From Campylobacter lari subsp. concheus (lineage in GTDB: Bacteria > Campylobacterota > Campylobacteria > Campylobacterales > Campylobacteraceae): a stretch of 64,000 bases of DNA. Made by a program: the position numbers and the translations under genes. Location: NCBI RefSeq assembly GCF_008245025.1, contig NZ_CP043426.1, positions 496,001-560,000 of the forward strand, in the 5' to 3' direction. Positions 236-41,149 of the stretch are shown here, piece after piece; within the stretch, counting starts at the first letter, position 1; every line of letters begins with the position of its first letter. The notes under the pieces were generated by a model, which was not told the DNA's origin, did not search any database, and saw only the letters and a program-made list of their open reading frames with translations.

Positions 236-1591
236 TTGAACTTGGTTGTAGATAAATTAATATTTTTTTTAAAAAATAACAATGTATTTTTAAGCGGTGG
301 TGCAGGTGTTGGTAAGTCTTTTTTAACTATGGAGCTTATAAAATCTTATAGAGTTCAAGGAAAAATTGTTATTGTATTGGGTTCTACTGCGCTTAGCGCT
401 TTTAATATAGGTGGGGTTACTTTACATAGTTTTTTTGCTTTTAAAAGATGTCAAAATTATGATGAATTATATTATGAAGATAGAAAGCAAAAAGATAAAC
501 TAGAAAAATTAAAGAGAATTTTAAAACAATGCGATTTATTGGTTATTGATGAAATCTCTATGGTAAGTGCTTCGTTGATGGAAATGATTTATTATAGATT
601 ATCAAGAAGTGGTTTTAATGGTAAAATTTTATTAGTTGGAGATTTTTTTCAACTTCCACCCGTGGTTAACCATAAAGAAAATCAAATTCAAAGTACTTTA
701 TTTCAAAATACTTTATATGCTTTTTCTTCGCAAGCCTGGAATGATCTGAAATTTATTAATTTAAAACTTAGTATTGCAAAAAGAACTTTAGATAAACAAT
801 TTTATGAATATTTGTTTTTTCTTAGAATGGGCGAAGCAAATAAAGAAATATTGAATTTCTTTAAAAAAATGTTAATTAGTTCAAAAAATTTACTTGAGTA
901 TATGGATAAGTATACTTTATTGTGCGCTACCAATAAAAAGACTAATCATATTAATACTGAAAAATTAAATCTTTTACAAGGTAAAGAAAGTATATTTAAG
1001 GCAAAAGCTGAAAAACTAGATTGTACTTTAGATGATAAAACTTACGAGCAGTGGATTAATGGACTTAATTCTTTGAGTGAGTTAAAATTGAAAATAGGCG
1101 CTAAGATTATTTTTTGTGTGAATAATAAAGAAGAAAATTATTATAATGGGGAACAAGGTGTTGTTTTAGATTTTATAAAAGATAAAGGGCAAGAATATAT
1201 TCTGATAGAAAAAAATAATGGTGAAAGATTGAAATTAAAACCATATGAATATATTTTAGAAGAGTATGAGTTAGATAAAGATGAAAAACTAGAAGTTAAG
1301 ATAAAAGCTAAATTTATTCAATTTCCTATAAAACTAGCCTATGCTATAACAATCCATAAATCTCAAGGTATGAGTATAGATAAATTAGTATGTGATATTG
1401 ATGGAATTTTTGAAAAAGGCCAATTATATGTATGTTTATCAAGAGCCATTAATCCAAGTAATTTAAAAATAATATATAATTATAAAATGCCTTTTGAGGA
1501 TTATTTTTTAAAAATTTTAAAATTTGATAAAGAGGTAAAACGATTTTATCTGCAAGAAAAGTTTATAAATTTAGAAGAAGATAGGGAGTGA
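236..1591 (+). CDS. PIF1/RecD-like AAA helicase
   Basis: Superfamily 1 helicase-like ATPase of 451 residues. Walker A is GGAGVGKS at residues 21-28, Walker B LLVIDEIS is near residue 104, a GDFFQLPPV stretch (motif III) is near 137, and the C-terminal AYAITIHKSQG and YVCLSRA motifs are typical of the PIF1/RecD2 branch. The family unwinds DNA with 5'-3' polarity; the exact role here is unknown. No ATG exists at the N-terminus. TTG 236 is used because AAAGAG sits four bases upstream; TTG 242 is also in frame. A T8 run at 263-270 lies just inside. The stop overlaps the next gene's start by four bases. C. jejuni has a homologous helicase beside lolA and secA (Cj0945c, from memory). Confidence 0.8.
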   Translation: MNLVVDKLIFFLKNNNVFLSGGAGVGKSFLTMELIKSYRVQGKIVIVLGSTALSAFNIGGVTLHSFFAFKRCQNYDELYYEDRKQKDKLEKLKRILKQCDLLVIDEISMVSASLMEMIYYRLSRSGFNGKILLVGDFFQLPPVVNHKENQIQSTLFQNTLYAFSSQAWNDLKFINLKLSIAKRTLDKQFYEYLFFLRMGEANKEILNFFKKMLISSKNLLEYMDKYTLLCATNKKTNHINTEKLNLLQGKESIFKAKAEKLDCTLDDKTYEQWINGLNSLSELKLKIGAKIIFCVNNKEENYYNGEQGVVLDFIKDKGQEYILIEKNNGERLKLKPYEYILEEYELDKDEKLEVKIKAKFIQFPIKLAYAITIHKSQGMSIDKLVCDIDGIFEKGQLYVCLSRAINPSNLKIIYNYKMPFEDYFLKILKFDKEVKRFYLQEKFINLEEDRE

Positions 1592-2238
1592 TTATGAGAT
1601 GGGTAGTAATTTTATTTTTTTCTTTTTGTAGTATTTATGCTAATTCTTTAAGTATAGAAGATTTTAGAACGGATTTGTATTCAAAAGCCGGAAATAATAC
1701 TTTAAAAAAGATTGAAATGACTTTAGATTTTGAGGGAGAAAATTTAGAACAAAAGAAAATTATAGATGCATTAAATACTATTGTATCTAGTTATTTTTAT
1801 GAAGATTTGTTCACAGAGGTGGGTAAAAACAACTTCAAAGAAACTTTGCTTAAATTTAGCAATAAAAAATACAAAACTCAAATAAAAAACATTTATATTT
1901 TAAAAATTAACTCAGTGGCTCAATTTGATATAGAAGAACTGAAGCGTTTTGTAAAAGATTTAGAAAAAAAAGAAGAAGATTTAAAAGAAACTGCTAAGCA
2001 AGAAGAAATTCAAAATATTATTCAAGTTGCTAAAACTTCAGATCAAAATAATACCCAGCCAAAAGACATAAATGCTACTCAAACAAACAGTATTAAAGAT
2101 AGTAATATAAGTTTTAATCAAGATGTTAATACAAGCAAAGAAGCTATGGATATGATTTTAAAAACTATGGAAAACGCTCAAATGCAAATGTTGGCACCAA
2201 GCAAAGAACAAGATTTGTTTAAAGAGATACCATTTTGA
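1588..2238 (+). CDS. Putative periplasmic protein, function unknown
   Basis: A 216-residue protein with a plausible signal peptide (residues 1-18, hydrophobic, ending SIYA-NS). The mature part starts with alpha/beta-like sequence and continues into a highly charged segment (about residues 118-145, rich in Glu and Lys, probably helical or coiled coil) and a polar Asn/Thr/Gln-rich tail. I recognise no catalytic motif. It overlaps the helicase by four bases, so the two are probably co-transcribed. It is convergent with lolA and the two stop codons abut, with a hairpin covering both ends. The same arrangement next to lolA is remembered from C. jejuni (Cj0944c). Confidence 0.7.
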   Translation: MIMRWVVILFFSFCSIYANSLSIEDFRTDLYSKAGNNTLKKIEMTLDFEGENLEQKKIIDALNTIVSSYFYEDLFTEVGKNNFKETLLKFSNKKYKTQIKNIYILKINSVAQFDIEELKRFVKDLEKKEEDLKETAKQEEIQNIIQVAKTSDQNNTQPKDINATQTNSIKDSNISFNQDVNTSKEAMDMILKTMENAQMQMLAPSKEQDLFKEIPF

Positions 2239-2260
2239 TTAATGGATTATATCAAAATGG
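2230..2260. terminator. Hairpin at convergent gene ends, possible bidirectional terminator
   Basis: A perfect 10-bp inverted repeat (CCATTTTGAT at 2230-2239, ATCAAAATGG at 2251-2260) with an 11-base loop covers the stop codons of the forward periplasmic-protein gene and the reverse lolA gene. There is no strong T run after either arm, so intrinsic termination is only plausible. Part of the stem encodes the last residues of LolA. Confidence 0.5.
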
Positions 2261-2745
2261 CTTGGGATTTTTGGTATAAAAATATTATCGTTGATATTTT
2301 GATCAAATTTTTGGTTGTAAAAATAAATACTAACTAAATTTCCTAATTCATCTTTATAAGAAATACTGTTAAGGCTACCGTTTTCTAGTTTGATATTATA
2401 TATGATATTTTCGTATTTTGCTTCATAGTTTTCGTGAGATATTAATTTTGCATTTTTAAAAATTACTTGAAGATTTGGTAAATTTTGCAATTGAGTGTAA
2501 ATGGCTTGTTCTAATTCAGGTTCTATGATAACAACTTCTTTGTTGTTGATATAAATTTGCTTTTTATTTGGTTTAGTATAATTCCAAAAGGCTTTATTTT
2601 GAGTAATGATAAAATTTCCTTTATAATTTAGCGAAGAATTATTACTTTGCACTTTTTGTTCAAAATCACTGCTGAAATTTTTAAAATTTATATCGAAAGC
2701 AAAAATATTACAAGTAAATATCATTAAAAATATAAAATATTTCAT
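2239..2745 (-). CDS. lolA: Outer-membrane lipoprotein carrier LolA
   Basis: Periplasmic chaperone that carries lipoproteins from the LolCDE exporter to the outer membrane. The 168-residue protein starts with a signal peptide (residues 1-16, ending IFA). It has the short beta-rich LolA/LolB pattern, including NFSSDFEQKV at the start of the mature protein, GNFIITQNKAFWNYTKPNKKQ, and the IYINNKEVVIIEPELEQA segment that forms the hydrophobic barrel. Length is near the usual 180-200. It is divergent from secA, with its own -10 candidate at 2770-2775 and an AAGGA ribosome site. The assignment is supported by the secA-lolA neighbourhood known from Campylobacter. Confidence 0.85.
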   Translation of the reverse strand: MKYFIFLMIFTCNIFAFDINFKNFSSDFEQKVQSNNSSLNYKGNFIITQNKAFWNYTKPNKKQIYINNKEVVIIEPELEQAIYTQLQNLPNLQVIFKNAKLISHENYEAKYENIIYNIKLENGSLNSISYKDELGNLVSIYFYNQKFDQNINDNIFIPKIPSHFDIIH

Positions 2746-2769
2746 AATTATCCTTTAAAAATTTTGTAA

Positions 2770-2775
2770 ATTATA
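2770..2775 (-). promoter_or_regulatory. -10 element, lolA promoter candidate
   Basis: On the reverse strand the sequence reads TATAAT at this position, about 25 bases before the lolA start and followed by an AAGGA ribosome site. No clear -35 is visible, which is usual for Campylobacter sigma-70 promoters. Confidence 0.45.
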
Positions 2776-2823
2776 TAAAATTTATGCAAATAAAATTTTA
2801 TATAGTTCTAATTAAAATCAAGG

Positions 2824-2829
2824 TATAAT
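2824..2829 (+). promoter_or_regulatory. -10 element, secA operon promoter candidate
   Basis: A perfect TATAAT (2824-2829) lies 34 bases before the secA ATG in the divergent lolA-secA intergenic region. An AAAGG ribosome site follows. No good -35 hexamer is seen at the proper distance; the upstream region is T/A rich, as is normal for this genus. Confidence 0.55.
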
Positions 2830-2863
2830 CTAGCATATATTTTTTGTAATTAAAGGTAAAAAA

Positions 2864-5455
2864 ATGTTTTCTAGTGTATTTAAAGCAATATTTGGCACAA
2901 AAAACGATCGAGAAGTAAAAAAATATTTAAAGAGAGTTGCACAAATTAATGCTTTAGAGTCAAAATACCAAAATTTAAGTGATGATGAATTAAAACAAAA
3001 ATTTATAGATTTTAAAACACAAATTCAAAAAGAAGAAAAAACTTTAGATCAAATATTAAATGATGTTTTTGCAATAGTTAGAGAAGTAGGAAAAAGAACG
3101 CTTAATATGCGCCATTTTGATGTGCAATTAATCGGTGGTATGGTTTTACATGAGGGAAAAATCGCTGAAATGAAAACCGGGGAAGGTAAAACCTTGGTTG
3201 CAACTTTACCTGTTGTATTAAATGCTATGAGCGGTAAGGGTGTGCATGTAGTTACTGTAAATGATTATTTAGCCAAAAGAGATGCAGAGCAAATGAGTGC
3301 TATTTATAATTTTTTAGGTTTTAGTGTCGGAGTAATACTTTCAGAGCAAAATAGCGATGAGGCACATAAAAAAGCTTATGAGTGTGATATAACTTATGGT
3401 ACAAATAATGAATTTGGCTTTGATTATTTGCGTGATAATATGAAATTTTCAAAGCTTGAAAAAGTACAAAGAGAGCATAATTTTGTTATAGTTGATGAAG
3501 TAGATAGTATTTTAATAGATGAAGCAAGAACTCCACTTATAATAAGCGGGCCTACAAATAGGACTTTAGATGGTTATATTAAAGCAAATGAAGTAGCAAA
3601 ACAAATGCAAAAAGGTCAAGCAGCGGCCACTCCTCAAGAATTACCAAGTGGAGATTTTGTTGTTGATGAGAAAAATAGAACTATTATGATTACAGAGGCT
3701 GGAATTTCTAAAGCAGAAAAATTATTTGGAGTGGAAAATTTATATAGCTTAGATAATGCAATATTAGCCCATCAGCTTGATCAGGCCTTAAAAGCACATA
3801 ATTTATTTGAAAAAGATGTGCATTATGTATTAAGAGATAAAGAAGTTATAATTGTTGATGAATTTACGGGAAGGTTAAGTGAAGGAAGACGCTTTAGTGA
3901 TGGTTTGCATCAAGCATTAGAGGCTAAAGAAGGGGTTAAAATTCAAGAAGAGAGCCAAACTTTAGCAGATATTACTTTCCAAAATTATTTTAGAATGTAT
4001 AAAAAATTAGCAGGTATGACAGGTACTGCACAAACTGAGGCAACAGAATTTTCTCAAATATATAATTTAGATGTGGTTTCCATACCTACAAATATACAGG
4101 TTGCAAGAATAGATAAAGATGATTTGATTTATAAAACACAGGAAGAAAAATTTAAAGCAGTTATTGAAGAAATAAAAAAAGCAAACGCAAAAGGTCAACC
4201 GGTTTTAGTAGGGACTGCAAGTATTGAAAGAAGTGAAGTATTTCATAACATGCTTGTAAAAGAACGCATTCCTCATCATGTGCTTAATGCTAAAAATCAC
4301 GAGCAAGAAGCTTTGATTATTCAAGATGCGGGTAAAAAAGGTGCAGTAACTATAGCTACTAATATGGCAGGTCGTGGCGTTGATATAAAAATAGATGATG
4401 AAATAAGAGCTTTAGGAGGGCTTTATATCATAGGAACTGAACGCCATGAAAGCAGAAGAATAGATAATCAACTTCGTGGTCGTGCAGGGCGTCAAGGCGA
4501 TCCTGGTGTAAGTAGGTTTTATTTAAGTTTAGAGGATAATCTTTTGAGAATTTTTGGTGGCGATCGCATTAAAAATATCATGGAAAGATTAGGTATAGAA
4601 GAGGGTGAACATATAGAAAGTCGCATTGTTACAAGAGCTGTAGAAAATGCTCAAAAAAAAGTTGAAAGTTTACATTTTGAAAGTAGAAAACATTTGCTTG
4701 AATATGATGATGTGGCTAATGAACAAAGAAAGACCATCTATAATTATAGAAATGAATTACTAGATGAAGAATTTGATTTGCAAGATAAAATTTTAAAAAA
4801 TATTGCTGAATATAGCAATCATTTAGTAAGTCAAATTTATCTAAATGCGGAGCTTGAGGATGATGTTAAACATTTTGAAAGCTTAAAGCAAAAAGTAAGT
4901 TATGAGTGTAACCTTGAACTAAACGAAGTTGATTTTAAAGATTTGGGTGTAATTGAAATAGAAAATAAATTAAGTGAAATTTTAGAAAAAGCTTATAAAG
5001 ATAAAATGAGTATTATTGAAGATAAGGAAGCTAGAAGAATTGAAAGAATTTTATATCTTCAAATTTTAGATAATCTATGGAGAGAGCATTTATACCAAAT
5101 GGATATTTTAAAAACTGGTATAGGTTTAAGAAGTTATAATCAAAAAGATCCTTTAGTGGAATATAAAAAAGAAAGTTATAATCTTTTCATGGAACTTGTT
5201 GAGCGTATTAAATTTGACAGTTTAAAATTGTTATTTAATGTAGTTTTTACTCAAAAAGAAGCACAAAATTTTGAAGAAAAAAGCCATGAGCAAAATGAGC
5301 AGTTTTTATCAAATACTACAGAAAGTGGTGTTAATGAAAACGGTGAAGCACAAATTACTAAAGTACCTAGAAATTCACTTTGTCCTTGTGGTAGTGGAAA
5401 AAAATATAAAGAATGTCATGGTAAAAGTGGTCCTAAAAAAGGTATTTTAGCTTAA
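2864..5455 (+). CDS. secA: Protein translocase ATPase SecA
   Basis: Motor ATPase that pushes unfolded preproteins through SecYEG. The 863-residue protein has every landmark: Walker A MKTGEGKT near residue 105, the DEAD-like [17 protein letters not shown] segment near 210, [11 protein letters not shown] and [13 protein letters not shown] motifs of the second helicase domain, the [20 protein letters not shown] scaffold helix, and a C-terminal zinc/SecB-binding tail [14 protein letters not shown]. Length agrees with the family (about 850-900). It appears to lead the run secA-flgR-asd-UPF0114-hemE-radical SAM, with only eight bases before flgR. Confidence 0.98.
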
Positions 5456-5463
5456 GGTTTGAG

Positions 5464-6753
5464 ATGAATTTAGTTATAGTTGAAGATGATATAAATATGA
5501 GAAAATCACTCGAAATAGCTTTGGGTGAGTATGAAGAATTTGCTATAAAATCTTATAAATCAGCAACTGAAGCGCTAAAAAAACTTAATGATGATGTTGA
5601 TTTAATTATTACAGATATTAATATGCCGGGTATGGATGGTATTGAATTTGTACAAGCTTGTGAGAATAAATATGATTTTATCATTATCACAGGCAATGCA
5701 ACGCTAAATCGCGCTATAGAAGCGGTAAGGCTTGGAGTAAAAGATTTTCTAGTAAAACCATTTGATATCAATACTTTAGTAACTGCAATAAAACGCGCAA
5801 AAATAATTCAAGAAAAGATTTCTAAAAAAACAAATAAAAAGACTACTAAAAAAGAAGAAAATCAAGATTTTTATGGTACTTCTAAGGCTTTGGAAAATTG
5901 TTTAAATTTGGCTTTAAAAGCTGCCAAAACAGATGCTAGTGTACTTTTTTTTGGAGAAAGTGGGGTAGGTAAAGAAGTTTTTGCAAATTTTGTACATAAA
6001 AATTCAAAAAGAGCGCAAAAGCCTTTTGTAGCAATTAATATGGCGGCAATTCCATCAAATTTGATTGAAAGTGAGCTTTTTGGTTTTGAAAAAGGTGCGT
6101 TTACTGATGCTAATACTACTAAAATAGGATTGTTTGAGCTTGCTAATGAAGGTACTTTATTTTTAGATGAAATAGGTGAAATGCCTTATGAAATTCAAGC
6201 AAAATTATTAAGAGCTTTACAAGAAAAAGAAATTACAAGATTAGGGAGTACTAAAAGTATAAAGATTGATGTAAGAATTATCAGTGCAACAAATGCTCAT
6301 ATAGAAAAAAAGATTGCAGATAATGAATTTAGACAAGATTTATATTATAGACTTAATACTATTCCTATTAATATACCACCGCTAAGAGAGCGTCAAGAAG
6401 AAATTTTGCAAATCGCGCAAAAGGTATTACTTGATACGTGTAAAGAATATGATTTTAATGAGAAAACTTTAAGCCAAGAAGCGCAAGATGCTTTACTAGC
6501 TTATGATTTTCCAGGTAATATTAGAGAATTGATTTCTATTATACAAAGAGCTTGCATTTTAAGTGAAAATGATGAGATTAGTGCTCAAGATTTATTTTTG
6601 GAAAGTAGAAAGAGTAAAGATATTAAAAATCTTGAAAAAGAATTGATTTTAGAAGCTTTAAAAAATTCGCAAGATATTACAGAAGCAGCTAAACTTATAG
6701 GGATGAGTGAGAAAATTTTTAGCGAAAAAATGAAAAAATACAATATTACTTAA
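5464..6753 (+). CDS. flgR: Sigma-54-dependent flagellar response regulator FlgR
   Basis: NtrC-family activator that, with the FlgS kinase, turns on RpoN-dependent flagellar genes. Residues 1-115 form a receiver domain with the acidic pair Asp8/Asp9 and phospho-acceptor Asp51 (LIITDINMPG). A linker rich in Lys/Thr follows, then an AAA+ domain with Walker A FGESGVGKE, the sigma-54 contact loop reading GAFTDA instead of the usual GAFTGA, Walker B LFLDEIGEM and the YYRLN arginine region. The C-terminus (EAAKLIGMSEKIFSEKMKKY) is a weak Fis-like helix-turn-helix. Length and Asp51 match C. jejuni FlgR. Homopolymers inside the gene include T8 at 5945-5952 and two A7 runs; A/T-tract phase variation of flgR is reported for C. 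jejuni. Confidence 0.93.
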   Translation: MNLVIVEDDINMRKSLEIALGEYEEFAIKSYKSATEALKKLNDDVDLIITDINMPGMDGIEFVQACENKYDFIIITGNATLNRAIEAVRLGVKDFLVKPFDINTLVTAIKRAKIIQEKISKKTNKKTTKKEENQDFYGTSKALENCLNLALKAAKTDASVLFFGESGVGKEVFANFVHKNSKRAQKPFVAINMAAIPSNLIESELFGFEKGAFTDANTTKIGLFELANEGTLFLDEIGEMPYEIQAKLLRALQEKEITRLGSTKSIKIDVRIISATNAHIEKKIADNEFRQDLYYRLNTIPINIPPLRERQEEILQIAQKVLLDTCKEYDFNEKTLSQEAQDALLAYDFPGNIRELISIIQRACILSENDEISAQDLFLESRKSKDIKNLEKELILEALKNSQDITEAAKLIGMSEKIFSEKMKKYNIT

Positions 6754-6765
6754 AAAGGACGGACA

Positions 6766-7782
6766 ATGAAAAAAATAGCTATTGTAGGTGCAACAGGAGC
6801 AGTTGGTGAAGAACTTTTAAATGTCTTAGATGAGCTTGATTTTCCAGTTGAAAGTATTTTGCCATTAGCAAGTGCAAAAAGCGCAGGTAGTGAAATAGAA
6901 TTTAGAGGTAAAGGCTATAAAGTAAAAGAATTAACTCCAAGTGTTTTTAAAGAAAATCCTGTGGATATTGTTTTTTTTAGCGCTGGAGGAAATATAAGTG
7001 CTGAGTATGCAAAATATGCAGTGGAATGTGGTGCTGTAGTGATTGATAATACGAGCCATTTTAGAATGGACGAGAATGTTCCTTTGGTGGTACCTGAATG
7101 CAATAGTGAAGATATTAAAGATTGGGAAAAAACAGGGATTATTGCTAATCCAAATTGCTCTACCATACAAATGGTACATGTTTTAAAACCACTTGATGAT
7201 GTATTTAATTTAAAAAGAGTAGATGTAAGTACTTATCAAGCAGCAAGTGGCGCAGGTAAAGAAGGTATGGAAGAACTAGTTCAAGGAATGCAAAGTTTTT
7301 TTGCTTTTAAATTAGATGAATTTGAAGCAAAAACCTTTCCATATACTTTGGCTTTAAATTTGATTCCTCAAATTGATGTTTTTAGCGACAATGGCTACAC
7401 TAAAGAAGAATTAAAAATGGTGAATGAAACGCAAAAAATATTGCATAAAAAACTTGAAATTTCAGCAACTTGCGTAAGAGTTCCTGTGCTTAGAAGTCAT
7501 AGTGAAGCCATTACTATGCATTTTGAAAAAGATGTTGATGTTGCTAAAGTTAGAGAGATACTTTCTAAAGCACCAAGTGTTGTTGTGATTGATGATGTAG
7601 AAAATAAAAAATATCCTATGCCGCTTTTTACAAGTGATACTAACGAAACTTATGTAGGAAGAATTAGACGTGATATTAATCATAAAAACATTTTACACTT
7701 ATGGTGTGTGGCTGATCAAATTCGTGTAGGAGCTGCTACAAATGCAGTGCGTATTGCACAAAAATGGCTAGAATTGGTTTAA
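6766..7782 (+). CDS. asd: Aspartate-semialdehyde dehydrogenase
   Basis: Reduces aspartyl-phosphate to aspartate semialdehyde with NADPH, feeding lysine/diaminopimelate, threonine and methionine synthesis. The 338-residue protein starts with the Rossmann motif GATGAVGEE (residues 8-16). The catalytic cysteine is in NPNCSTIQM near residue 131; substrate-binding motifs YQAASGAGKEG and RVPVLRSHSEAI follow, and the C-terminal WCVADQIRVGAATNAV is characteristic. It follows flgR by 12 bases with an AAAAGGACGG ribosome site. Confidence 0.97.
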   Translation: MKKIAIVGATGAVGEELLNVLDELDFPVESILPLASAKSAGSEIEFRGKGYKVKELTPSVFKENPVDIVFFSAGGNISAEYAKYAVECGAVVIDNTSHFRMDENVPLVVPECNSEDIKDWEKTGIIANPNCSTIQMVHVLKPLDDVFNLKRVDVSTYQAASGAGKEGMEELVQGMQSFFAFKLDEFEAKTFPYTLALNLIPQIDVFSDNGYTKEELKMVNETQKILHKKLEISATCVRVPVLRSHSEAITMHFEKDVDVAKVREILSKAPSVVVIDDVENKKYPMPLFTSDTNETYVGRIRRDINHKNILHLWCVADQIRVGAATNAVRIAQKWLELV

Positions 7783-7793
7783 AAAGGGGAAAA

Positions 7794-8300
7794 ATGTTAG
7801 AAAGATTTTTTGAAAATTTATTAGTTAAGAGTCGTTTGGTTACTATTTTACCTGTAATTTTTGGTTTAATAGGAGCTTTTGTTTTATTTTTTATCGCAAG
7901 TTATGATGTGATTAAAGTTTTAAAATATGTATTTGAATATTTTACACTTGCAAAGTCAAATATTGATTTACATGAAGATATTGTAGGATTAATTATTGGA
8001 GCTGTAGATTTATATTTAATGGCTTTGGTTTTGTTTATTTTTTCTTTTGGAATTTATGAATTATTTATTAGCGAAATAGAAGAATTTAAACAAACCAAAC
8101 AATCTAAAGTTTTAGAAGTGCATAGCTTAGATCAACTAAAAGATAAACTTGCTAAAGTTATTATTATGGTTTTGATTGTAAATTTCTTCCAAAGAATTTT
8201 ACAAATGCAACTTAATACAGTTTTAGATATGACTTATTTGGCAGGTTCTATTTTGGCTCTTTGTGTAGGGCTTTATTTCTTGCATAAAAGCGATCATTAA
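7794..8300 (+). CDS. UPF0114 (YqhA-like) membrane protein
   Basis: Small inner-membrane protein of unknown function. The frame opens at 7764, but ATG 7794 is preferred: a strong AAAGGGG site sits six bases upstream and the protein then begins MLERFFENLLVKSRLVTILPV, the typical UPF0114 N-terminus. It is about 168 residues long with three or four transmembrane segments (roughly residues 14-36, 57-80, 122-140, 145-163 by hydrophobicity). It lies between asd and hemE, as in C. jejuni beside asd (Cj1022c, from memory). Confidence 0.8.
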   Translation: MLERFFENLLVKSRLVTILPVIFGLIGAFVLFFIASYDVIKVLKYVFEYFTLAKSNIDLHEDIVGLIIGAVDLYLMALVLFIFSFGIYELFISEIEEFKQTKQSKVLEVHSLDQLKDKLAKVIIMVLIVNFFQRILQMQLNTVLDMTYLAGSILALCVGLYFLHKSDH

Positions 8301-8312
8301 TAAGGAATAAAA

Positions 8313-9335
8313 ATGATTTTTATTGATGCGTGTTTTAAAAAATCAACCCCTTATATTCCAGTTTGGATGATGCGTCAAGCAGGAAGGTATTTACCTGAGT
8401 ACATGGAAGTTAGAGCAAGTGCCGGGGATTTTTTATCGCTTTGCAGGGACTATAAAAAAGCAAGTGAAGTTACTTTACAACCTGTGGATATTTTGGGTGT
8501 TGATGCGGCTATTATTTTTTCAGATATTTTAGTTGTACCTTTAGAAATGGGCATGGATTTAAAATTTGAAAAAGGCGAAGGGCCAGTATTTTCAAATCCC
8601 ATTAAAACTAAGGAAGATTTGGAAAGATTAGATGTTGAAAAAAGTGTTAAAAATCTTTCTTATGTTTATGATGCACTAGCGCTTACTAGAGAAAAACTTG
8701 CGCATGATAAAGCTTTGATTGGTTTTTGTGGAAGTCCTTGGACTATTGCTACTTATATGATAGAGGGTGGTGGTAGTAAAAATTATGTAAAATGTAAAAA
8801 ATTAGTTTATCAAAATCCTGAATTTTTACATCAAATTTTATCCAAACTTACTTTAGCTTTAAAGTATTATATTCAAGAACAAATTAAAGCAGGGGCTAAT
8901 GCTATACAGATATTTGATAGTTGGGCAAGTGCTTTAGAAAAAGAGATGTTTTTTGAATTTTCTTTTAAATACATGCTTGAAATTGCTGATTTTATCAAAG
9001 AAAAATATCCACATATTCCCGTGATTTTATTTCCTAAAGGTGTTAGTGGATTTTTGGATGGTATAAATGGAAATTTTGATGTTTTTGGTGTAGATTGGAG
9101 TACGCCTTTAGAATTAGCAAAAGAAAAACTAGGCGCTAGATATACTTTACAGGGTAATATGGAGCCTTGTAGATTGTATGATAAAAAGGCGATCGAAGTA
9201 GGAGTGGATAAAATTTTAAATATCATGCAAGATAGTGCACATATTTTTAACCTTGGACATGGTATTTTGCCTGATATTCCTGTTGAAAATGCTAAATATT
9301 TTATCAAGCTAGTTCAAGAGAAATCTAAAAAGTGA
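8313..9335 (+). CDS. hemE: Uroporphyrinogen decarboxylase
   Basis: Converts uroporphyrinogen III to coproporphyrinogen III by removing four acetate carboxyls, in haem synthesis in the cytoplasm. The first signature [15 protein letters not shown] is at residues 15-29, with the substrate-binding arginines; [14 protein letters not shown] carries the catalytic Asp region; [20 protein letters not shown] is the second signature; the C-terminal [16 protein letters not shown] is also diagnostic. The 340-residue length is normal. The stop overlaps the next gene by four bases, suggesting translational coupling with the radical SAM gene. Confidence 0.98.
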
Positions 9336-10240
9336 ATAAAATTACTTTTGGCCCCATAAGTTCAAGAAGATTTGGGCTTTCCTTAGGGATTGATTTAAGT
9401 CCAAATCAAAAGCAATGTAATTTCGATTGTGTATATTGTGAGTTGCAAGCTGCAAAACCTGTGGAAAAGTCTTTAGCATATCCAAAAATTCAAGATATCT
9501 TGGAACAAGTAGAGCAAGCTTTAGCTAGCGATGTGAAATTCGATTTTCTCACATTAACTGCAAATGGTGAACCTAGTCTGTATCCTTATTTAAAAGAATT
9601 AGTTTGTGAGTTAAATAAAATAAAACAAGATAAAAAACTTTTGATTTTAAGTAATGGCAGCGGTGTGTTAAATCCAAATGTATTTAATGCTTTATTGGAT
9701 ATTGATGTGGTTAAATTTAGTCTTGATAGTGCTAAAGAAAAAACATTTTATAGAATAGATAAAGCTCTAAAACAAATTAAACTTAAAACAATGATTGATA
9801 AAATGATTGCTTTTAGGGAAAAATTTCTAGGTGAGCTTGTTATGGAAGTTTTAGTTGTACAAGGCTTAAATGACAATAAAGAAGAAATGTTAGCTTTAAA
9901 TGAAGTATTTGGTAAAATAAAGCCATTAAGAGTGGATTTTAGCACTATTGATAGACCTCCGGCTTATCCTGTTAAAGGTGTATCTATGGAAAAATTAGAA
10001 GAATTAAGTATGTATATTAATACCACCCCTGTTGTTCTTGCTAAGCATTATTATAAAGGTGAAAAAATTGATTTTAATACTCAAGAGCTTTTAAAAATGT
10101 TGCAACTTAGAGCTCAAAGTGAATTTGATGTTGAAAATAAATTCAGTCAATACAGTAAAGAATTATTAGAAAAATTAATTAAAGAGCAAAAAGTCGTTGT
10201 AAAAAATTTAGCAGGAGTGAATTTTTACAAAAAAATATAA
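9332..10240 (+). CDS. Radical SAM protein, function unresolved
   Basis: A 302-residue radical SAM enzyme. The [4Fe-4S] ligands are Cys29, Cys33 and Cys36 in [11 protein letters not shown] (CxxxCxxC). The SAM-binding GE-like strand is [12 protein letters not shown] and a later LILSNGSG strand follows the TIM-barrel pattern. The N-terminal [17 protein letters not shown] resembles the uncharacterised MoaA/NifB-like group found in many anaerobes and in Campylobacter directly after hemE (Cj1244, from memory). The C-terminal 70 residues look like a small winged-helix-like domain. The link with hemE (four-base overlap) could hint at tetrapyrrole chemistry but this is inference. Confidence 0.75.
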
Positions 10241-34006: not shown

Positions 34007-35220
34007 GAAAAAGTTTAGTTTGTTTGATGATGGGTTTTGTTTTAACTTTAAGTGCTTTTGCAAAAGAGCAAAAACCATCACCCATAGAACCTAGTGAGTC
34101 TTTTTATCCTAATTTAGAATTTCAAAATTGTGATAATGATTGTTTATTTACTTTGCTAGAAACAGGACTTTATTTTAATTTCTTATCAAGATTTAACAAT
34201 GATAATGCAAATGAACTTTTGGTTAATATTTATACTAAACTTTTAAATTCCATCATAGATTTTGAAAAAAGAATTCAAAAAAATGCTAGTGTAAAATTAG
34301 CTATTATTTTGCCTGAACAAACGATTAAAAGCTATTCTAATACTATTATAAATTCAAGCATAGCGTATTTGCTAAGACAAAGAGCGCAGATAAAAGTAAA
34401 GGTGTTTTTAATAGGCACAGAAGATGAGAGTAAGATAGCTAAAGCTTTTAAGCAAGCTCAAGAAGAAAAATTTAATTATATCATTGCAGGTTTTACAGAT
34501 AAGGGTGTGAAAAATTTATTAAAAGAAAATCTTGATTTAAATGTAAAAGTTTTCATACCTACTGCACATAAAAGAAATTTTGATATGCAAAATGAAAATG
34601 TGTATTTTGGAAGTATAGATTATCAAAAACAAATTCAAAAACTTTTAGAATATTCAAATGGTAAAAATATTATTTTTTCAGATGGAACACCTTTGGCAAA
34701 TCGCTTAGATGAGAATGTTTTAAACGCAGGTAATGGTAGTGAGAAAATTTACACTATCAATAGTTCTAAATTTGATTTTAGAAGTATTTTAAATCAAAAT
34801 AGAAGTTTTCAAGATTCTAGTATTATTTTAAATACTTCTTTGATTAAAACAGCGCTTATAAGCTCGCAAATAAGAACTTATGATATAGAGCCTTTTGTGT
34901 TATTATCAACTCAGATTAATTATAATCCTATTTTGCTAAGCTTAACGCAAATTAATGATAGAAAAAAACTTTTACTAGCAAATTCCATTTCTAATGAGGA
35001 TCAAACTCTAAGCTATCTTAATGAGCTTTTTTCGCAAAATATCAACTACAACTGGATAGCGTATGCAACTAGCGTGGGGCTTGATTATTTTTATACGCAG
35101 TTTTTAGATAAAGACTCTCAAGGAATTTTTGATGAGAGCTTAAATGATAATCAATTTGACTATAAGGTTAAAATCATTCGCTCGCAAGGCTTAGGTTTTA
35201 CTCCTTTGCAAAATCAGTAA
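34003..35220 (+). CDS. Putative periplasmic protein, periplasmic-binding-protein-like
   Basis: A 405-residue exported protein with signal peptide MRKSLVCLMMGFVLTLSAFA (cleavage near 20). The middle part alternates beta strands and helices (VKLAIILPEQTIKSYS, AQIKVKVFLIGTEDESKIAKAF, FNYIIAGFTDKGVKNLL, VKVFIPTAHKRNF, NIIFSDGTPLANRL), which resembles a type 1 periplasmic-binding or LpoA-like fold, but I recognise no diagnostic motif. It is the last of three overlapping forward genes and its 3' end overlaps ybgC on the other strand by 23 bases. The C. jejuni positional counterpart (Cj0964) is also uncharacterised, from memory. Confidence 0.65.
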   Translation: MRKSLVCLMMGFVLTLSAFAKEQKPSPIEPSESFYPNLEFQNCDNDCLFTLLETGLYFNFLSRFNNDNANELLVNIYTKLLNSIIDFEKRIQKNASVKLAIILPEQTIKSYSNTIINSSIAYLLRQRAQIKVKVFLIGTEDESKIAKAFKQAQEEKFNYIIAGFTDKGVKNLLKENLDLNVKVFIPTAHKRNFDMQNENVYFGSIDYQKQIQKLLEYSNGKNIIFSDGTPLANRLDENVLNAGNGSEKIYTINSSKFDFRSILNQNRSFQDSSIILNTSLIKTALISSQIRTYDIEPFVLLSTQINYNPILLSLTQINDRKKLLLANSISNEDQTLSYLNELFSQNINYNWIAYATSVGLDYFYTQFLDKDSQGIFDESLNDNQFDYKVKIIRSQGLGFTPLQNQ

Positions 35221-35578
35221 AAACCTTAGCGATAGTCTCATCTATAGGGGCTACTTTTTCATTTTTTAAAAAAGCTAGGGTAAATTCAGCCTCAAAAAGT
35301 TTAGTATTTTCTTTATAAATTTCTTGCTTTATGCAAACTGAAGCTTTTTTAAGCTTTGTGATAAATGTTTTTACTTCTATGAGATCTCCAAGTTTAGCTG
35401 GTTTTAAAAAGCTACAATTTGCTTTAGTAAGTAGGAAATGTCCTGTATTTTTATCAAAAATTTCTGCGTTTTTTTGAAAAAATATCTCACTTCTTGCTCT
35501 TTCGCAAAATTTTAAGTAGTTGCTATGATACACAACTCCACCTGCGTCGGTATCTTCATAATAAATTCGTATTTGCAT
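35198..35578 (-). CDS. ybgC: YbgC-type acyl-CoA thioesterase
   Basis: A 126-residue hot-dog-fold thioesterase that hydrolyses short-chain or hydroxybenzoyl acyl-CoA. The signature YYEDTDAGGVVYHSNYLKFCERARSE (residues 5-30) contains the catalytic aspartate in DTDAGGVVYH. It is a single gene, convergent with and overlapping the periplasmic-protein gene. The restriction-modification block starts 46 bases upstream, so that insertion sits directly beside its promoter. Confidence 0.9.
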   Translation of the reverse strand: MQIRIYYEDTDAGGVVYHSNYLKFCERARSEIFFQKNAEIFDKNTGHFLLTKANCSFLKPAKLGDLIEVKTFITKLKKASVCIKQEIYKENTKLFEAEFTLAFLKNEKVAPIDETIAKVFTDFAKE

Positions 35579-35624
35579 TTAAAATCCTTTAGTTTGGTAT
35601 GATAGTGTCTCTTTTGAGCGGAGA

Positions 35625-36647
35625 TTAGATACAATCCCCATAAGGTAAGGATTTTATATAATCTTCCATAAATTTCCAATCAGGAGTGTTGTCTGAAGCT
35701 ACCGGAAGTTTGATTTTCATATCTTTTATTGTATTGCTATAAACAGCTCTTCCATATGAAAATTTAAATTTTTCATTATTTAAGAGTGTTGTAATAAATA
35801 ACAGATGAAATTTGTTTAGTTGAATTTTTGGTATAAGTATATTAACTCTACCGTGACTTACAGCATAAAAATCTTTATCTCTATAAAAAGCATTACAAAA
35901 CATATCCAAAGTAATGCTGTTTTTTTTGAATATTAAAGAATCTTTTTTGTTAGAAATTGTTGATTGTCCATTTGTATAGCAAAGTATTCCAAAGTTGTTT
36001 ATTCCAGATGATATTAATGGATAAAAACCATTTTCACATTCATCATTTTTTAAATCACCTTTGGCAAGTTTTACATCAAAAAAATCTTGTACCAAAAAAT
36101 ATTTCCAATTATTAGTATCTAAAGAACTGTTTTTTGTTTGATTTTTAGTTTCTAAACTGTTTTTATATAGACTTTGTATTTGATTTTTTAAAGATTTTAT
36201 GTAATCTTCCATAAATTTCCAATCAGGAATTCCATGTTTAGTTGAAGGTAATTTTATTTGATGAGTATTGAAATTTTTAATACGATATTGTCTTCCATAT
36301 TCAAATCTATATTTATCTTGAGATATAATAGAAACAATAAATAGTTTAACAAAAGGTGAAATATTTTTTGTAATATCAATTTCATCTAGTACAATGATAT
36401 TGTCATCACACGCAAAGTTATATGGTTGATAAAAACAATTACAAAACATATCTATGGTAATTTTATCTTTGTATATAATTACATCATTATCAATATAATC
36501 AGAAACTCCATTATTGTTTTCACCAGCTGTTATAAATGGGATGTTACCTTTTTTTCTATCGTTTATAGTTAATCTTTTACCACGAATGGGTAAAAATAAA
36601 TCTTTTAAATAAAATACCTTCCATTCGGTTGTTTTTATACTACTCAT
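35625..36647 (-). CDS. Specificity subunit of BcgI-like restriction-modification system
   Basis: A 340-residue S-type protein made of two target-recognition domains. Half one begins TEWKVFYLKDLFLPIRGKRLT and ends PDWKFMEDYIKSL (about 140-152) followed by a helical spacer; half two begins NNWKYFLVQDFFDVKLAKGDL and ends with the same PDWKFMEDYIKSL (about 321-333). Each half recognises one part of a bipartite DNA site. The two identical segments are encoded by 36-nt direct repeats. The length is close to BcgIB (341, from memory). Its start overlaps the stop of the nuclease-methyltransferase gene by eight bases. The recognition sequence cannot be read from sequence. Confidence 0.85.
   Translation of the reverse strand: MSSIKTTEWKVFYLKDLFLPIRGKRLTINDRKKGNIPFITAGENNNGVSDYIDNDVIIYKDKITIDMFCNCFYQPYNFACDDNIIVLDEIDITKNISPFVKLFIVSIISQDKYRFEYGRQYRIKNFNTHQIKLPSTKHGIPDWKFMEDYIKSLKNQIQSLYKNSLETKNQTKNSSLDTNNWKYFLVQDFFDVKLAKGDLKNDECENGFYPLISSGINNFGILCYTNGQSTISNKKDSLIFKKNSITLDMFCNAFYRDKDFYAVSHGRVNILIPKIQLNKFHLLFITTLLNNEKFKFSYGRAVYSNTIKDMKIKLPVASDNTPDWKFMEDYIKSLPYGDCI
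35650..35685. repeat. 36-nt direct repeat, copy 1 (specificity gene)
   Basis: One of two 36-base copies in the specificity gene, encoding the second PDWKFMEDYIKSL segment. It differs from copy 2 at one base (A at 35658 against G at 36201). Copies start 543 bases (181 codons) apart in the same orientation and frame. Confidence 0.9.
36193..36228. repeat. 36-nt direct repeat, copy 2 (specificity gene)
   Basis: Second copy, encoding the first PDWKFMEDYIKSL segment at the junction between the two target-recognition domains. Identity with copy 1 is 35 of 36 bases, far above what protein conservation requires. Confidence 0.9.
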
Positions 36648-38448
36648 TATTATCTCTTATTGTTATTTTATAAGCTAAGAAATTTCTAATTGTCTTTTCA
36701 AAATCATCTTGTGTTAAAGTTGAATAATCTGTTTCCATATAAGCTTCTGCTAGCCATTCATCATCAGCAGTTACTTTTCTAAGAACACTTAGCCCGCTTA
36801 CCTCTTGTTTTTTGGCAAACAATTCAAGCCATAATTTTTCTTTTTCTTTCCATATGCCATTATTTTTCTCAACTCTACCTAGATATTTCTTTTTAATAAA
36901 ACCATCATCTTTGAAATAACCAAAGAAAGTTTCTTTTATTAAAGCTTTGTCATGTTTAATACCTAGATTGAATATCATGCAACATGCGCAAGCGCTTGCC
37001 CCTGGGTGAAATATATCAGAAGGTAAAGTGAAAACAGCTTCTAAATGATGTTCTTGTAGCATAAGTTCTTTGTATTTTTTTATACTACTAGATGATCCGA
37101 TGGCGCATTGTAAAGGTAATAATACAGCCAGTTTGCCTTTTTTAACATTTTTTGCTATTTCATAGACAAAATAAAAACCTTTTGAAGGATCTTCTTTTGA
37201 TGTCCCCCAGTTATCGGTGTAGCTATTAGGACAAACTGATTTTTGAGCATTATAAGGCGGATTCATTAATACTTTATCAATACCCCATTCTTCAAATTTA
37301 TCTAGCATGTTAAAACAGCTTTCTTGGTAAATATTGGAATTGCCATCACCGTGTATTAGCATATTTGTAGTTGCTAATCCAAAGGCTACTTCTTCTCGTT
37401 CAATACCATAAATATTCTTTTCTTTAACACCTTCTTTTTCTTCTAAAGTTTTGCAATCATCTATAGCATCTGTTAACGCTCGAACTAAAAAAGATCCGCT
37501 TCCACAGCAAGGATCTAGAACTTTACTTTTGTTATTTATTCCTATTGCTTTACACATAAATGAAACGATGTGGTCTGGTGTAAAAGCTTGGTTTTTGTCA
37601 TCTTTTCCTACATATTTATTGAAAGTTGTAAAGAAAAGATTGAGTAAATCTTGTCCTTGTGTGGATTTTTCATTAATAAATGGGTATATATTTTTATGAA
37701 TAAAAGATATGATTTCTCTAAAAACATTATCTTGTAATTGTCTAATGTCTTGTTGTTCTAATATTTTTTTATCAAGTATAGTTAGTTTTTCTGATTTATT
37801 AGGATTATTATTAAGCAATTGCTCTAATATTTCTTTAATACTGGCAATAATTTGTTTTGTACTTAAATTATCATATCTTAAATTATTTTTTATGGCTAAA
37901 AGACATGTTCCTACAAATTGACCACGTAACTTCTCTTTTATTCCATATTGATGTAATATTTCATTTAACTTATAAGTGTTTTTCATTACTTCTTCACGGT
38001 TATTGGTTGTTTGTGGTTTTAATAAATCTATATACTCTTTAAAGGTTTTGAGTGTTAATTCGTTGTTTAATAGATTGTTGCTATTAATTTCGTTTTTGTA
38101 AACTTTAATTCTATCATCGGTTGTGTTTGCTAATATACCGATAATTAAATGATTTGTTAGTTTTTTTTCATAGCTAACATAAGCTTGTAGTTGCTCTTTT
38201 GCACTATCAATATCTTTTGTGAAATCTTGTTTAGTTTCAACTAAAATTGTTATTTTTGACTCAATATCAACAAACCTTAAATCAACATTTGTGTAATAAG
38301 TTTTATTTTTTTGTCTTTTTATTTTTAATTCATCAAATTTTTTATTAATAATATTGAATGCTTTTTGGTAGCTAAATTCTCCATTTTCAACATTACTGCT
38401 AAGATATTTTTCGCCTATTGTATTGATAATTGCATTACGAGAAGCCAT
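36640..38448 (-). CDS. Fused nuclease-methyltransferase subunit of BcgI-like restriction-modification system
   Basis: A 602-residue protein combining cleavage and methylation. The N-terminus carries a PD-(D/E)xK-type site: Asp56 in NVDLRFV and Glu71-Thr-Lys73 in ILVETKQDF. The middle is helical. The gamma-class N6-adenine methyltransferase core has the SAM motif VLDPCCGSGSFLVRA (near residue 311) and catalytic NPPY (near 395). Target recognition is supplied by the downstream S gene, overlapping by eight bases. This domain order with a separate S is that of type IIB BcgI, which cuts both sides of its site. A plain type I HsdM would lack the nuclease. No hsdR is nearby. Confidence 0.85.
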   Translation of the reverse strand: MASRNAIINTIGEKYLSSNVENGEFSYQKAFNIINKKFDELKIKRQKNKTYYTNVDLRFVDIESKITILVETKQDFTKDIDSAKEQLQAYVSYEKKLTNHLIIGILANTTDDRIKVYKNEINSNNLLNNELTLKTFKEYIDLLKPQTTNNREEVMKNTYKLNEILHQYGIKEKLRGQFVGTCLLAIKNNLRYDNLSTKQIIASIKEILEQLLNNNPNKSEKLTILDKKILEQQDIRQLQDNVFREIISFIHKNIYPFINEKSTQGQDLLNLFFTTFNKYVGKDDKNQAFTPDHIVSFMCKAIGINNKSKVLDPCCGSGSFLVRALTDAIDDCKTLEEKEGVKEKNIYGIEREEVAFGLATTNMLIHGDGNSNIYQESCFNMLDKFEEWGIDKVLMNPPYNAQKSVCPNSYTDNWGTSKEDPSKGFYFVYEIAKNVKKGKLAVLLPLQCAIGSSSSIKKYKELMLQEHHLEAVFTLPSDIFHPGASACACCMIFNLGIKHDKALIKETFFGYFKDDGFIKKKYLGRVEKNNGIWKEKEKLWLELFAKKQEVSGLSVLRKVTADDEWLAEAYMETDYSTLTQDDFEKTIRNFLAYKITIRDNNE

Positions 38449-38508
38449 TTTATTCCTTGCTTTATGTTTTTACAGGTTATTTTATAAAAAATAATTATAT
38501 AAAATCAA

Positions 38509-38514
38509 ATTATA
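38509..38514 (-). promoter_or_regulatory. -10 element, restriction-modification operon candidate
   Basis: The reverse strand reads TATAAT here, 61 bases before the nuclease-methyltransferase start. A second TATAAT candidate lies nearer, at 38494-38499. No -35 is evident. I cannot decide between the two. Confidence 0.35.
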
Positions 38515-38569
38515 TCTATTTAAAATAAAAGTATAACTTTATGATGTTGGTTGATTTTACATCTTGTGT

Positions 38570-38575
38570 TAAAAT
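38570..38575 (+). promoter_or_regulatory. -10 element, dsbA promoter candidate
   Basis: TAAAAT preceded by TTGTGT lies 29 bases before the dsbA ATG at 38605, in the 156-base divergent region shared with the restriction-modification genes. A consensus -35 at the right spacing is missing. Confidence 0.35.
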
Positions 38576-38604
38576 TGCATTTTAAAAATATAAAAGGAAA
38601 AAAC

Positions 38605-39255
38605 ATGCAAATAAATCAAAAAATTCATAAACTTATAATCTTTTTAGCCTTTATGTTTGCTATAAATGCACAAGCTCTTAGCGAAGGAAAAGAATACATT
38701 ACTTTAAAAACACCTATCCCAAATGCACAAAATTCTCTAATAGAGGTGTTTTCTTATCGTTGCATTCATTGTTACACCCATCATCAATTTCACACTTTAG
38801 CAAAGGTTAAAGAGGCTTTGCCAAATTTAAAATATGATCTTTTTTCAGTAAGTTCTATGAGTGAGTATGGTGGGGCTTTAAATGAGATGTTTGCTTTAGC
38901 TTCTTTTAAAGAAAAAACCTTAGGTTTAGATGTTGCTAGTGAAAAAAGTCTTACCCATAAGCTTGCTGATGTGTATTTTGTAAGTCATTTTGAGCAAAAG
39001 TTAAATTTAAATAATCTTGATTTGTTTTATAAAATAGGTTTAAATGCTATTGGTGCTAGCAAAGAAGAATTGCAAAAATTTTTACAAACTAAAGAAGCTA
39101 AAGAACTTTTAGCTACTTATGATGTGGCTAATGAAATTTCAAGAAATTATGGCACACCTGCTTTTGTAGTAAATGGTAAATATCAAATCAACCCCGAATA
39201 CATTACTTCTTTAGAAGAACTAATCCGTATAGTTAAAGAACTTTCAGTCAAATAA
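38605..39255 (+). CDS. dsbA: Thiol:disulfide oxidoreductase DsbA/DsbL-like
   Basis: Periplasmic enzyme that introduces disulfide bonds. The frame opens earlier, but ATG 38605 follows AAAAGGA and starts a signal peptide ending near NAQA (residue 24). The thioredoxin active site is Cys53-Ile-His-Cys56 in YRCIHCYTHH, and the cis-proline loop is YGTPAFVVNG. The 216-residue length is normal. It sits 43 bases before astA, a pairing like DsbL-AssT of uropathogenic E. coli and the dsbB-astA-dsbA region of C. jejuni, where the oxidant helps mature the sulfotransferase. No dsbB/dsbI is seen in this window. Confidence 0.9.
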   Translation: MQINQKIHKLIIFLAFMFAINAQALSEGKEYITLKTPIPNAQNSLIEVFSYRCIHCYTHHQFHTLAKVKEALPNLKYDLFSVSSMSEYGGALNEMFALASFKEKTLGLDVASEKSLTHKLADVYFVSHFEQKLNLNNLDLFYKIGLNAIGASKEELQKFLQTKEAKELLATYDVANEISRNYGTPAFVVNGKYQINPEYITSLEELIRIVKELSVK

Positions 39256-39298: not shown

Positions 39299-41149
39299 AT
39301 GAAAATTAAAAAAATTATCAGCTTAAGCTTACTAGCTAGTGTGGTTTTGGCGCCAAATTTAGCTTTAGCTGTAGGTGGAGCAAGTGGGGCTAAGATAGAC
39401 TATCAAGTACAAGGACAAATTGGAGCTATAAAGCTTAATCCTTATGGTTTATCCCCGCTTAGTGCTGTGATTGTAGATGGAGGATATAGATTAAGCGATG
39501 TGAGTGTGACTATAGTTCCAAAGCCAAATGGACAAACCATATCTTATAAGGTAAGTTCTAATAAAATTAAAACTTATGGAGGAATTCCTATTTTTGGACT
39601 TTATCCATCGTATTTAAACACAGTAAAAGTAAGCTATACTAAAAGTGCTTTTGGAAAAAGTGAAAAAGTAATAGATGAGGTATATAAAATAGCAACAGGT
39701 GGGGTAAATATAGAGCCAAGTGGAAGTCTTATGCAAAGAGGTGTGCCTTTTGAAAAAGTGGAAGTATTTAAAGTAGATAAAGAATTTGAAGATAGATTGT
39801 ATCTAGTAAATAATACTCCAGGAAAATATAGTGCAAAAAGCTCTCAAGCTATATGGAATAATCCAAGTGGTGGTGCTTTAGAATGGGATGAGGCTTCTAA
39901 TGCCTTCATTGTCGATACAAAGGGTGAAATTCGTTGGTATTTAGATAATGATAAACTAATGGATAAAAACAATATTTATAATCGTGGTATCATGATGGGC
40001 TTTAGACAAAACTCAGATGGGGCGTTAAGCTTTGGATTTGGTCAAAGATATGTAAAATATGATTTAATGGGTAGAGAAATTTTTAACCGTCTTTTACCTT
40101 TTTCTTATATAGATTTTTCTCATTCTATGAGTCAAATGCCAAATGGAAATTATCTTTTAAGAGCGGCTTTGGCTAATGTTAAGCGTCCTGATGGTAAAAA
40201 TGTACGTTCAGTGCGGGATGTGATAATAGAAGTTGATAAAAATGGTAATGTAGTAGATGAGTGGAGGCTTTTTGAAATTTTAGATCCATATAGAGCTAAT
40301 ATTATCAAAGTTTTAGATCAAGGTGCAGTTTGTTTAAATGTGGATGTTTCAAAAGCGGGTAAAACTCTAAGCAATGAAGAATTAGCTAAAATGGATACAA
40401 GTGAAATTTTTGGAGATATAGCAGGAACTGGAGTAGGGCGTAACTGGGCTCATGTAAATAGCGTAGATTATGATCCAAGCGATGATAGCATTATTATTTC
40501 AAGTCGCCATCAAAGTGCTATTATAAAAATTGGCCGTGATAAAAAAGTAAAATGGATATTAGGAGCACATAAGGGCTGGGGAGAAAAATATAAAAAAGCA
40601 CTTTTACAACCTATTGATAAAAATGGAAAAAATATAATTTGTGAAGATGATTATAGTAAATGTCCTGGTTATAAAAATAAGGAAGGTGGTTTTGATTTTA
40701 CATGGACACAGCACACTGCTTTTAGAATAGATGAAAAATCTAATAAAAGATATATTTACATTACAGCTTTTGACAATGGCGACGCAAGAGCTATAACACA
40801 ACCTGCTTTTGCTTCGATGAAATATTCAAGAGCGGTTGTATATAAAATAGATCAAAAAAATAAAACCGTAGAACAAATTTGGGAATATGGTAAACAAAGA
40901 GGCAATAAATGGTTTTCGCCTATTACTTCTTTAGTTGAGTATTATAAAGATAAGAATTCGATTATGGTTTATAGCGCTAGCGCTGGCATGGCTTTTGATT
41001 TAAGTAAGGGTATTGCTATAGGAGAGCCAAAACCTGAAATAGATGAGTTTAAATGGGGAGCTAAAGAGCCTTCAGTGCAAATTCGCTTTAGTGGAGCAAG
41101 TGTTGGTTATCAGGCTATGCCTATTGATTTAGAAAAAGCATTTAAATAA
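39299..41149 (+). CDS. astA: Arylsulfate sulfotransferase
   Basis: Periplasmic enzyme that moves sulfate from one phenol to another without PAPS. The 616-residue protein has a signal peptide (residues 1-24, ending LALA) and the AssT six-bladed propeller. Conserved histidine segments of the family are seen: YIDFSHSMSQMPNGN, GVGRNWAHVNSVDYDPSDDSIIISSRHQSAI and FTWTQHTAFRID, one of which carries the histidine that is transiently sulfated. It is intact, whereas astA is disrupted in C. jejuni NCTC 11168 (from memory). The partner dsbA lies upstream. Confidence 0.95.
   Translation: MKIKKIISLSLLASVVLAPNLALAVGGASGAKIDYQVQGQIGAIKLNPYGLSPLSAVIVDGGYRLSDVSVTIVPKPNGQTISYKVSSNKIKTYGGIPIFGLYPSYLNTVKVSYTKSAFGKSEKVIDEVYKIATGGVNIEPSGSLMQRGVPFEKVEVFKVDKEFEDRLYLVNNTPGKYSAKSSQAIWNNPSGGALEWDEASNAFIVDTKGEIRWYLDNDKLMDKNNIYNRGIMMGFRQNSDGALSFGFGQRYVKYDLMGREIFNRLLPFSYIDFSHSMSQMPNGNYLLRAALANVKRPDGKNVRSVRDVIIEVDKNGNVVDEWRLFEILDPYRANIIKVLDQGAVCLNVDVSKAGKTLSNEELAKMDTSEIFGDIAGTGVGRNWAHVNSVDYDPSDDSIIISSRHQSAIIKIGRDKKVKWILGAHKGWGEKYKKALLQPIDKNGKNIICEDDYSKCPGYKNKEGGFDFTWTQHTAFRIDEKSNKRYIYITAFDNGDARAITQPAFASMKYSRAVVYKIDQKNKTVEQIWEYGKQRGNKWFSPITSLVEYYKDKNSIMVYSASAGMAFDLSKGIAIGEPKPEIDEFKWGAKEPSVQIRFSGASVGYQAMPIDLEKAFK

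Follow-up and report, generated by a model that had tools for sequence, protein, structure and literature searches.

Gene content and predicted protein architecture

The module consists of two genes on the minus strand of the window, the whole stretch of 64,000 nucleotides that was analyzed. The RM gene (36640..38448) encodes a protein of 602 amino acids and the S gene (35625..36647) a protein of 340 amino acids. Both open reading frames (ORFs) are uninterrupted, in agreement with the original prediction that both genes are intact. The stop of the RM gene and the start of the S gene share the 8 nt ATGAGTAG (36640..36647, minus strand), an overlap that is consistent with coupled translation. 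The module is bordered on the left by a YbgC-type thioesterase gene, ybgC (35198-35578), and on the right by dsbA (38605-39255) and the arylsulfotransferase gene astA (39299-41149), names that are presumed from recognition of their sequences. No RNA elements were found at the module locus.

The RM protein is predicted to combine several domains in a single chain. Specifically, the predicted fold contains a nuclease domain at residues about 1-120, a helical connector at residues about 136-260 and a gamma-class N6-adenine methyltransferase at residues about 265-560, the last of which is also supported by a family match. The AlphaFold model, with a mean pLDDT of 85.8, ends in a lone C-terminal helix (residues 580-598). 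The sole Pfam match in the protein is N6_Mtase PF02384 (residues 278-554, E=8e-31), and the methyltransferase motifs DPCCGSG and NPPY are present. PADLOC identifies residues 120-595 as a Type IIG REase-MTase (E=8e-57).

The original prediction had placed a nuclease with Asp56, Glu71 and Lys73 in front of the methyltransferase. These residues stand at the positions named, with the codons for Asp56 to Glu71-Thr-Lys73 at 38230..38283 (minus strand), and PD-(D/E)xK topology is predicted over the first 120 residues. The predicted order of this domain, with helices at residues 4-11, 27-33, 38-41 and 76-98 and strands at 24-26, 57-61, 66-73, 101-108 and 114-118, fits a PD-(D/E)xK core in which E71 and K73 share one strand. 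D56, E71, T72, K73 and Q86 are kept in seven close RM relatives, mostly from other phyla, and E71 and K73 are invariant in all 45 of the diverse RM homologues compared, as are TP (290-291), D312, G316 and NPP (396-398). D56 is invariant in the close relatives; its column is shifted in the distant rows of the A4 alignment, so that its conservation is readable only among the close relatives.

Foldseek searches with the RM model returned HsdM (2okc) and the Type IIB enzyme BsaXI (8w2p, 8w2q, 8w0p), together with the Type IIG enzymes BpuSI and DrdV. The alignment with BsaXI 8w2p comprises 579 columns. The full-length TM-score against BsaXI is a modest 0.47, of which domain orientation may be part of the cause. 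A profile search of the PDB with the RM family retrieved RM.BsaXI with E=5e-28.

The S protein possesses two Methylase_S repeats (Pfam PF01420, E=3e-35), and its two halves are 35% identical. Together with the 8-nt overlap, these repeats bear out the expectation of a separate two-domain S protein overlapping the RM protein. PADLOC classifies it as Specificity_II (E=1e-35). In the model, which has a pLDDT of 87.8, a first target-recognition domain (TRD1) is followed by a short helix of 20 residues (143-162), TRD2 and a truncated last helix (324-333). The structural matches of this model are HsdS proteins (including 1ydx and 1yf2), among them that of Mycoplasma genitalium, and the S subunit of BsaXI. 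When the S protein was compared pairwise with solved structures directly, no useful match was obtained.

Known relatives and distribution of the family

The anatomy of the module is that of BcgI and Sau42I, and thus of an already known kind. Among the experimentally named BcgI-like pairs compared, the closest is Sau42I of Staphylococcus phage phi-42 (X94423), which was published as BcgI-like; BcgI itself is likened to the module by description. Sau42I has overlapping genes in the same order, RM then S, and the sizes of its proteins are similar, with 639 amino acids for RM against 602 here and 337 for S against 340. The identities are 29% for RM and 30% for S, and the methyltransferase motifs are the same. 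Because the TRDs of Sau42I have diverged, its specificity is probably different from that of the module. BLASTP of the RM protein against Sau42I covered it from residue 145 onward only, so that for the nuclease half the link to the family comes from the family alignment and the predicted fold and not from pairwise similarity. Unlike the chromosomal module, Sau42I is borne by a phage.

The described architecture of BcgI, the Type IIB prototype, also consists of an RM fusion and a separate S protein with two TRDs, and hsdR and an additional methyltransferase are likewise absent (PMC3874165, PMC4081073). BsaXI (8w0p, 8w2p, 8w2q) shares the order of PD-(D/E)xK nuclease, helical connector and gamma methyltransferase, and its S fold is alike. 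The spacing of D56-E71-x-K73 in the module is that of D90-E105-x-K107 in BsaXI (D-x14-E-x-K), and mutation has shown that E73, D90, E105 and K107 are required for cutting by BsaXI (PMC11997821). In contrast, the BsaXI RM protein is larger, with 916 amino acids and added knob and paddle regions. The module has instead the lone C-terminal helix that the BsaXI paper describes for the remaining RM+S group. The BcgI-like plan is shared as well by HP1471/HP1472 and Hpy99XXII of H. pylori, the latter of which, when expressed, marks TCm6AN6TRG (PMC3936762). The closest named relative found for the RM protein is encoded on a Macrococcus plasmid (NZ_CP065730; WP_103214369/WP_103214370), where the gene order is shared and the RM proteins are 57% identical, but the S proteins only about 29%.

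The RM protein has relatives in the Bacillota, Bacteroidota, Synergistota and Planctomycetota and also on plasmids and viral contigs. A viral scan with the single RM protein gave no match, while scans with alignments gave 9 and 79 loci. A separate S ORF was detected near 52 of 74 distinct RM homologues from viral and genome contigs, a conserved operon that speaks for the pairing of the two subunits. S is fused in another 8, and the number of TRDs in fused RM-S chains can be one or two. In a maximum-likelihood tree, the module RM protein groups loosely with those of the Macrococcus plasmid, a Clostridia MAG and viral contigs, with support values of 81/93 and 94/95 that are below the starred level, and apart from proteins of 47-54% identity in other genomes of its own genus. 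This position suggests horizontal acquisition.

Two genomes of the same genus have a related module in which two ORFs, of 236-249 and 105 amino acids, make up a split S gene (L006:454-1484 and L007:3389-4458). Remnants of the C-terminus of the RM family occur in several related genomes (L014, L016, L018 and G040:C1:484332-484720), some with in-frame stops.

Classification and alternative explanations

Several observations point to the Type IIB class. A predicted PD-(D/E)xK nuclease lies in one chain with a gamma-class N6-adenine methyltransferase (PF02384, DPCCGSG, NPPY), a separate S subunit carries two target-recognition domains, and a translocase and an extra methyltransferase are absent, the neighbors being ybgC, dsbA and astA. 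The family E-values and the invariance of E71 and K73 exclude chance as an explanation for the identities of RM and S. The module is thus very probably a complete BcgI-like system (Type IIB, RM + S) that sits as exchangeable cargo in the ybgC-dsbA interval. The BcgI plan had been proposed in the original prediction, and the nuclease fold, the matches to BsaXI and HsdS and the gene order and sizes of Sau42I all agree with it. The two-gene module is intact and would encode a complete cutting and marking enzyme of the ordinary BcgI kind. On the grounds of intact frames and conserved catalytic residues only, it is probably active.

By analogy with characterized enzymes, the module would recognize a bipartite m6A site, cut on both sides of it and serve in defense against foreign DNA. 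One S subunit is expected to have an RM subunit bound at each of its two ends, with each TRD reading one half of the site. At a site with neither half methylated, the RM nuclease domains would cut both strands on each side at a fixed distance; at a site methylated in one half, the methyltransferase would place N6-methyladenine on the other. ATP and a translocase would be dispensable.

It is extremely unlikely that the genes form a methyltransferase pair of Type I-like character that relies on an hsdR about 211 kb away. The RM core and the S protein do fold like HsdM and HsdS, and the genome has one hsdR. However, this hsdR belongs to a complete Type I locus (L041; G000:C1:312000-330000, 1029-9618) that has its own hsdM and hsdS, and the idea of a distant hsdR serving the module was therefore rejected. 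The same locus encodes a 770-aa EcoEI-like HsdR, a SoFic-like Fic protein and an 802-aa AAA_13 protein (PF13166, a family that includes PrrC/RloC-type anticodon nucleases). No hsdR helicase/translocase was found to partner the M and S functions of the module, whose RM protein carries its own nuclease domain with the invariant E and K. Additionally, the methyltransferase regions of the RM protein and of the other-locus protein are only about 24-27% identical, the latter being a second methyltransferase of the genome located at C1:320481. The module S protein does not match the other HsdS, and no second match to it was found in the genome. A search of the genome for the HSDR_N family was negative, which means little alone because the genome does carry the EcoEI-like hsdR.

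It is very improbable that the module is a Type IIG enzyme with cutting on a single side. The PADLOC match bears that name, and a cut pattern is not readable from sequence, but all the enzymes in a review's table in which an RM protein is joined by a separate S protein with two TRDs (BcgI, BaeI, CspCI, BsaXI and NgoAVIII) cut on both sides (PMC3874165). The BcgI-like pairs of H. pylori are often switched off (PMC3936762), and the module could by the same token be a methylation-only relic, nuclease-dead or silent, whose present role is that of an epigenetic mark. This seems improbable, since both reading frames are uninterrupted, D, E and K of the catalytic motif are in place, homopolymeric G/C tracts are absent and a second species has kept the RM gene with 1808 of 1809 nt identical. 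The BcgI-like Type IIB reading is preferred. Membership in MADS (mad2) was also considered and rejected, as the MAD2 model scored 39 bits against a curated cut-off of 720 and the neighbors are housekeeping genes.

Insertion site, recent spread and possible exchange of recognition domains

Empty sites in five related genomes (G099, G120, G104, G079 and G102) indicate that the inserted segment between ybgC and dsbA spans approximately 35579..38545. The distance between the two genes is 3026 bp here and about 170-315 bp where the site is empty. This confirms the earlier view of the module as an accessory insertion, and the bounds then given for the segment (35579-38604) were right within tens of bases. 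A search of 49 genomes of the genus found the module only in G097, at the same location. The RM genes are identical at 1808 of 1809 nt (99.9%) and the S genes at 1015 of 1023 nt, with the S differences mostly within the last 200 nt or so, beside the left flank. The flanking genes are less similar, at 92% for ybgC, 96% for dsbA and 94% for astA, and the module therefore moved recently between the lineages of these two closely related species, probably by recombination in the flanks. Clear empty sites accompany this transfer.

Other species of the genus carry different cargo in the same interval (L084, L085, L086, L087, L088, L089, L090 and L092). In G103, G091 and G125 an Eco57I-type Type IIG enzyme of a single chain is encoded there beside other proteins, which in G103 and G091 are pentapeptide-repeat proteins. 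A pentapeptide-repeat protein is also found in G098 and, with one unnamed protein, in G124, while G105 and G100 have ORFs whose beginning resembles that of the G098 protein. The cargo of G115 is a metabolic operon that includes an aldehyde dehydrogenase. Because its contents are so varied, the ybgC-dsbA interval is regarded as a site of repeated cargo exchange, at which restriction systems have been acquired more than once. As an intact Type IIB system, the module itself would be a further barrier to phage and foreign DNA for this species group, and it leaves knowledge of how such enzymes work unchanged.

The S gene contains two copies of a 36-nt direct repeat, one at the end of TRD1 (36193..36228) and the other at the end of TRD2 (35650..35685), which differ by one mismatch and sit inside a 71-nt pair that is 76% identical. 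These repeats could allow the recognition domains to be exchanged by recombination. In the S gene of a Type IIG system of H. pylori, such repeats accompany the movement of TRDs between positions (PMC3077401). No alternative TRD arrangement of the S gene was seen. It is possible, though doubtful, that the interval is a cargo-exchange spot and that the S gene also switches its recognition sequence through the repeats at the TRD ends. While the BcgI-like S genes of H. pylori contain a phase-variable poly-G tract (PMC3936762), the module S gene has none. Tracts of G or C of at least 7 nt are absent from the module and from the whole window, and phase variation of the module through such tracts was ruled out.

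Downstream of dsbA, several relatives (L047, L049, L050, L052, L053 and L054) carry a second dsbA-like gene, 56-59% identical, in place of astA.
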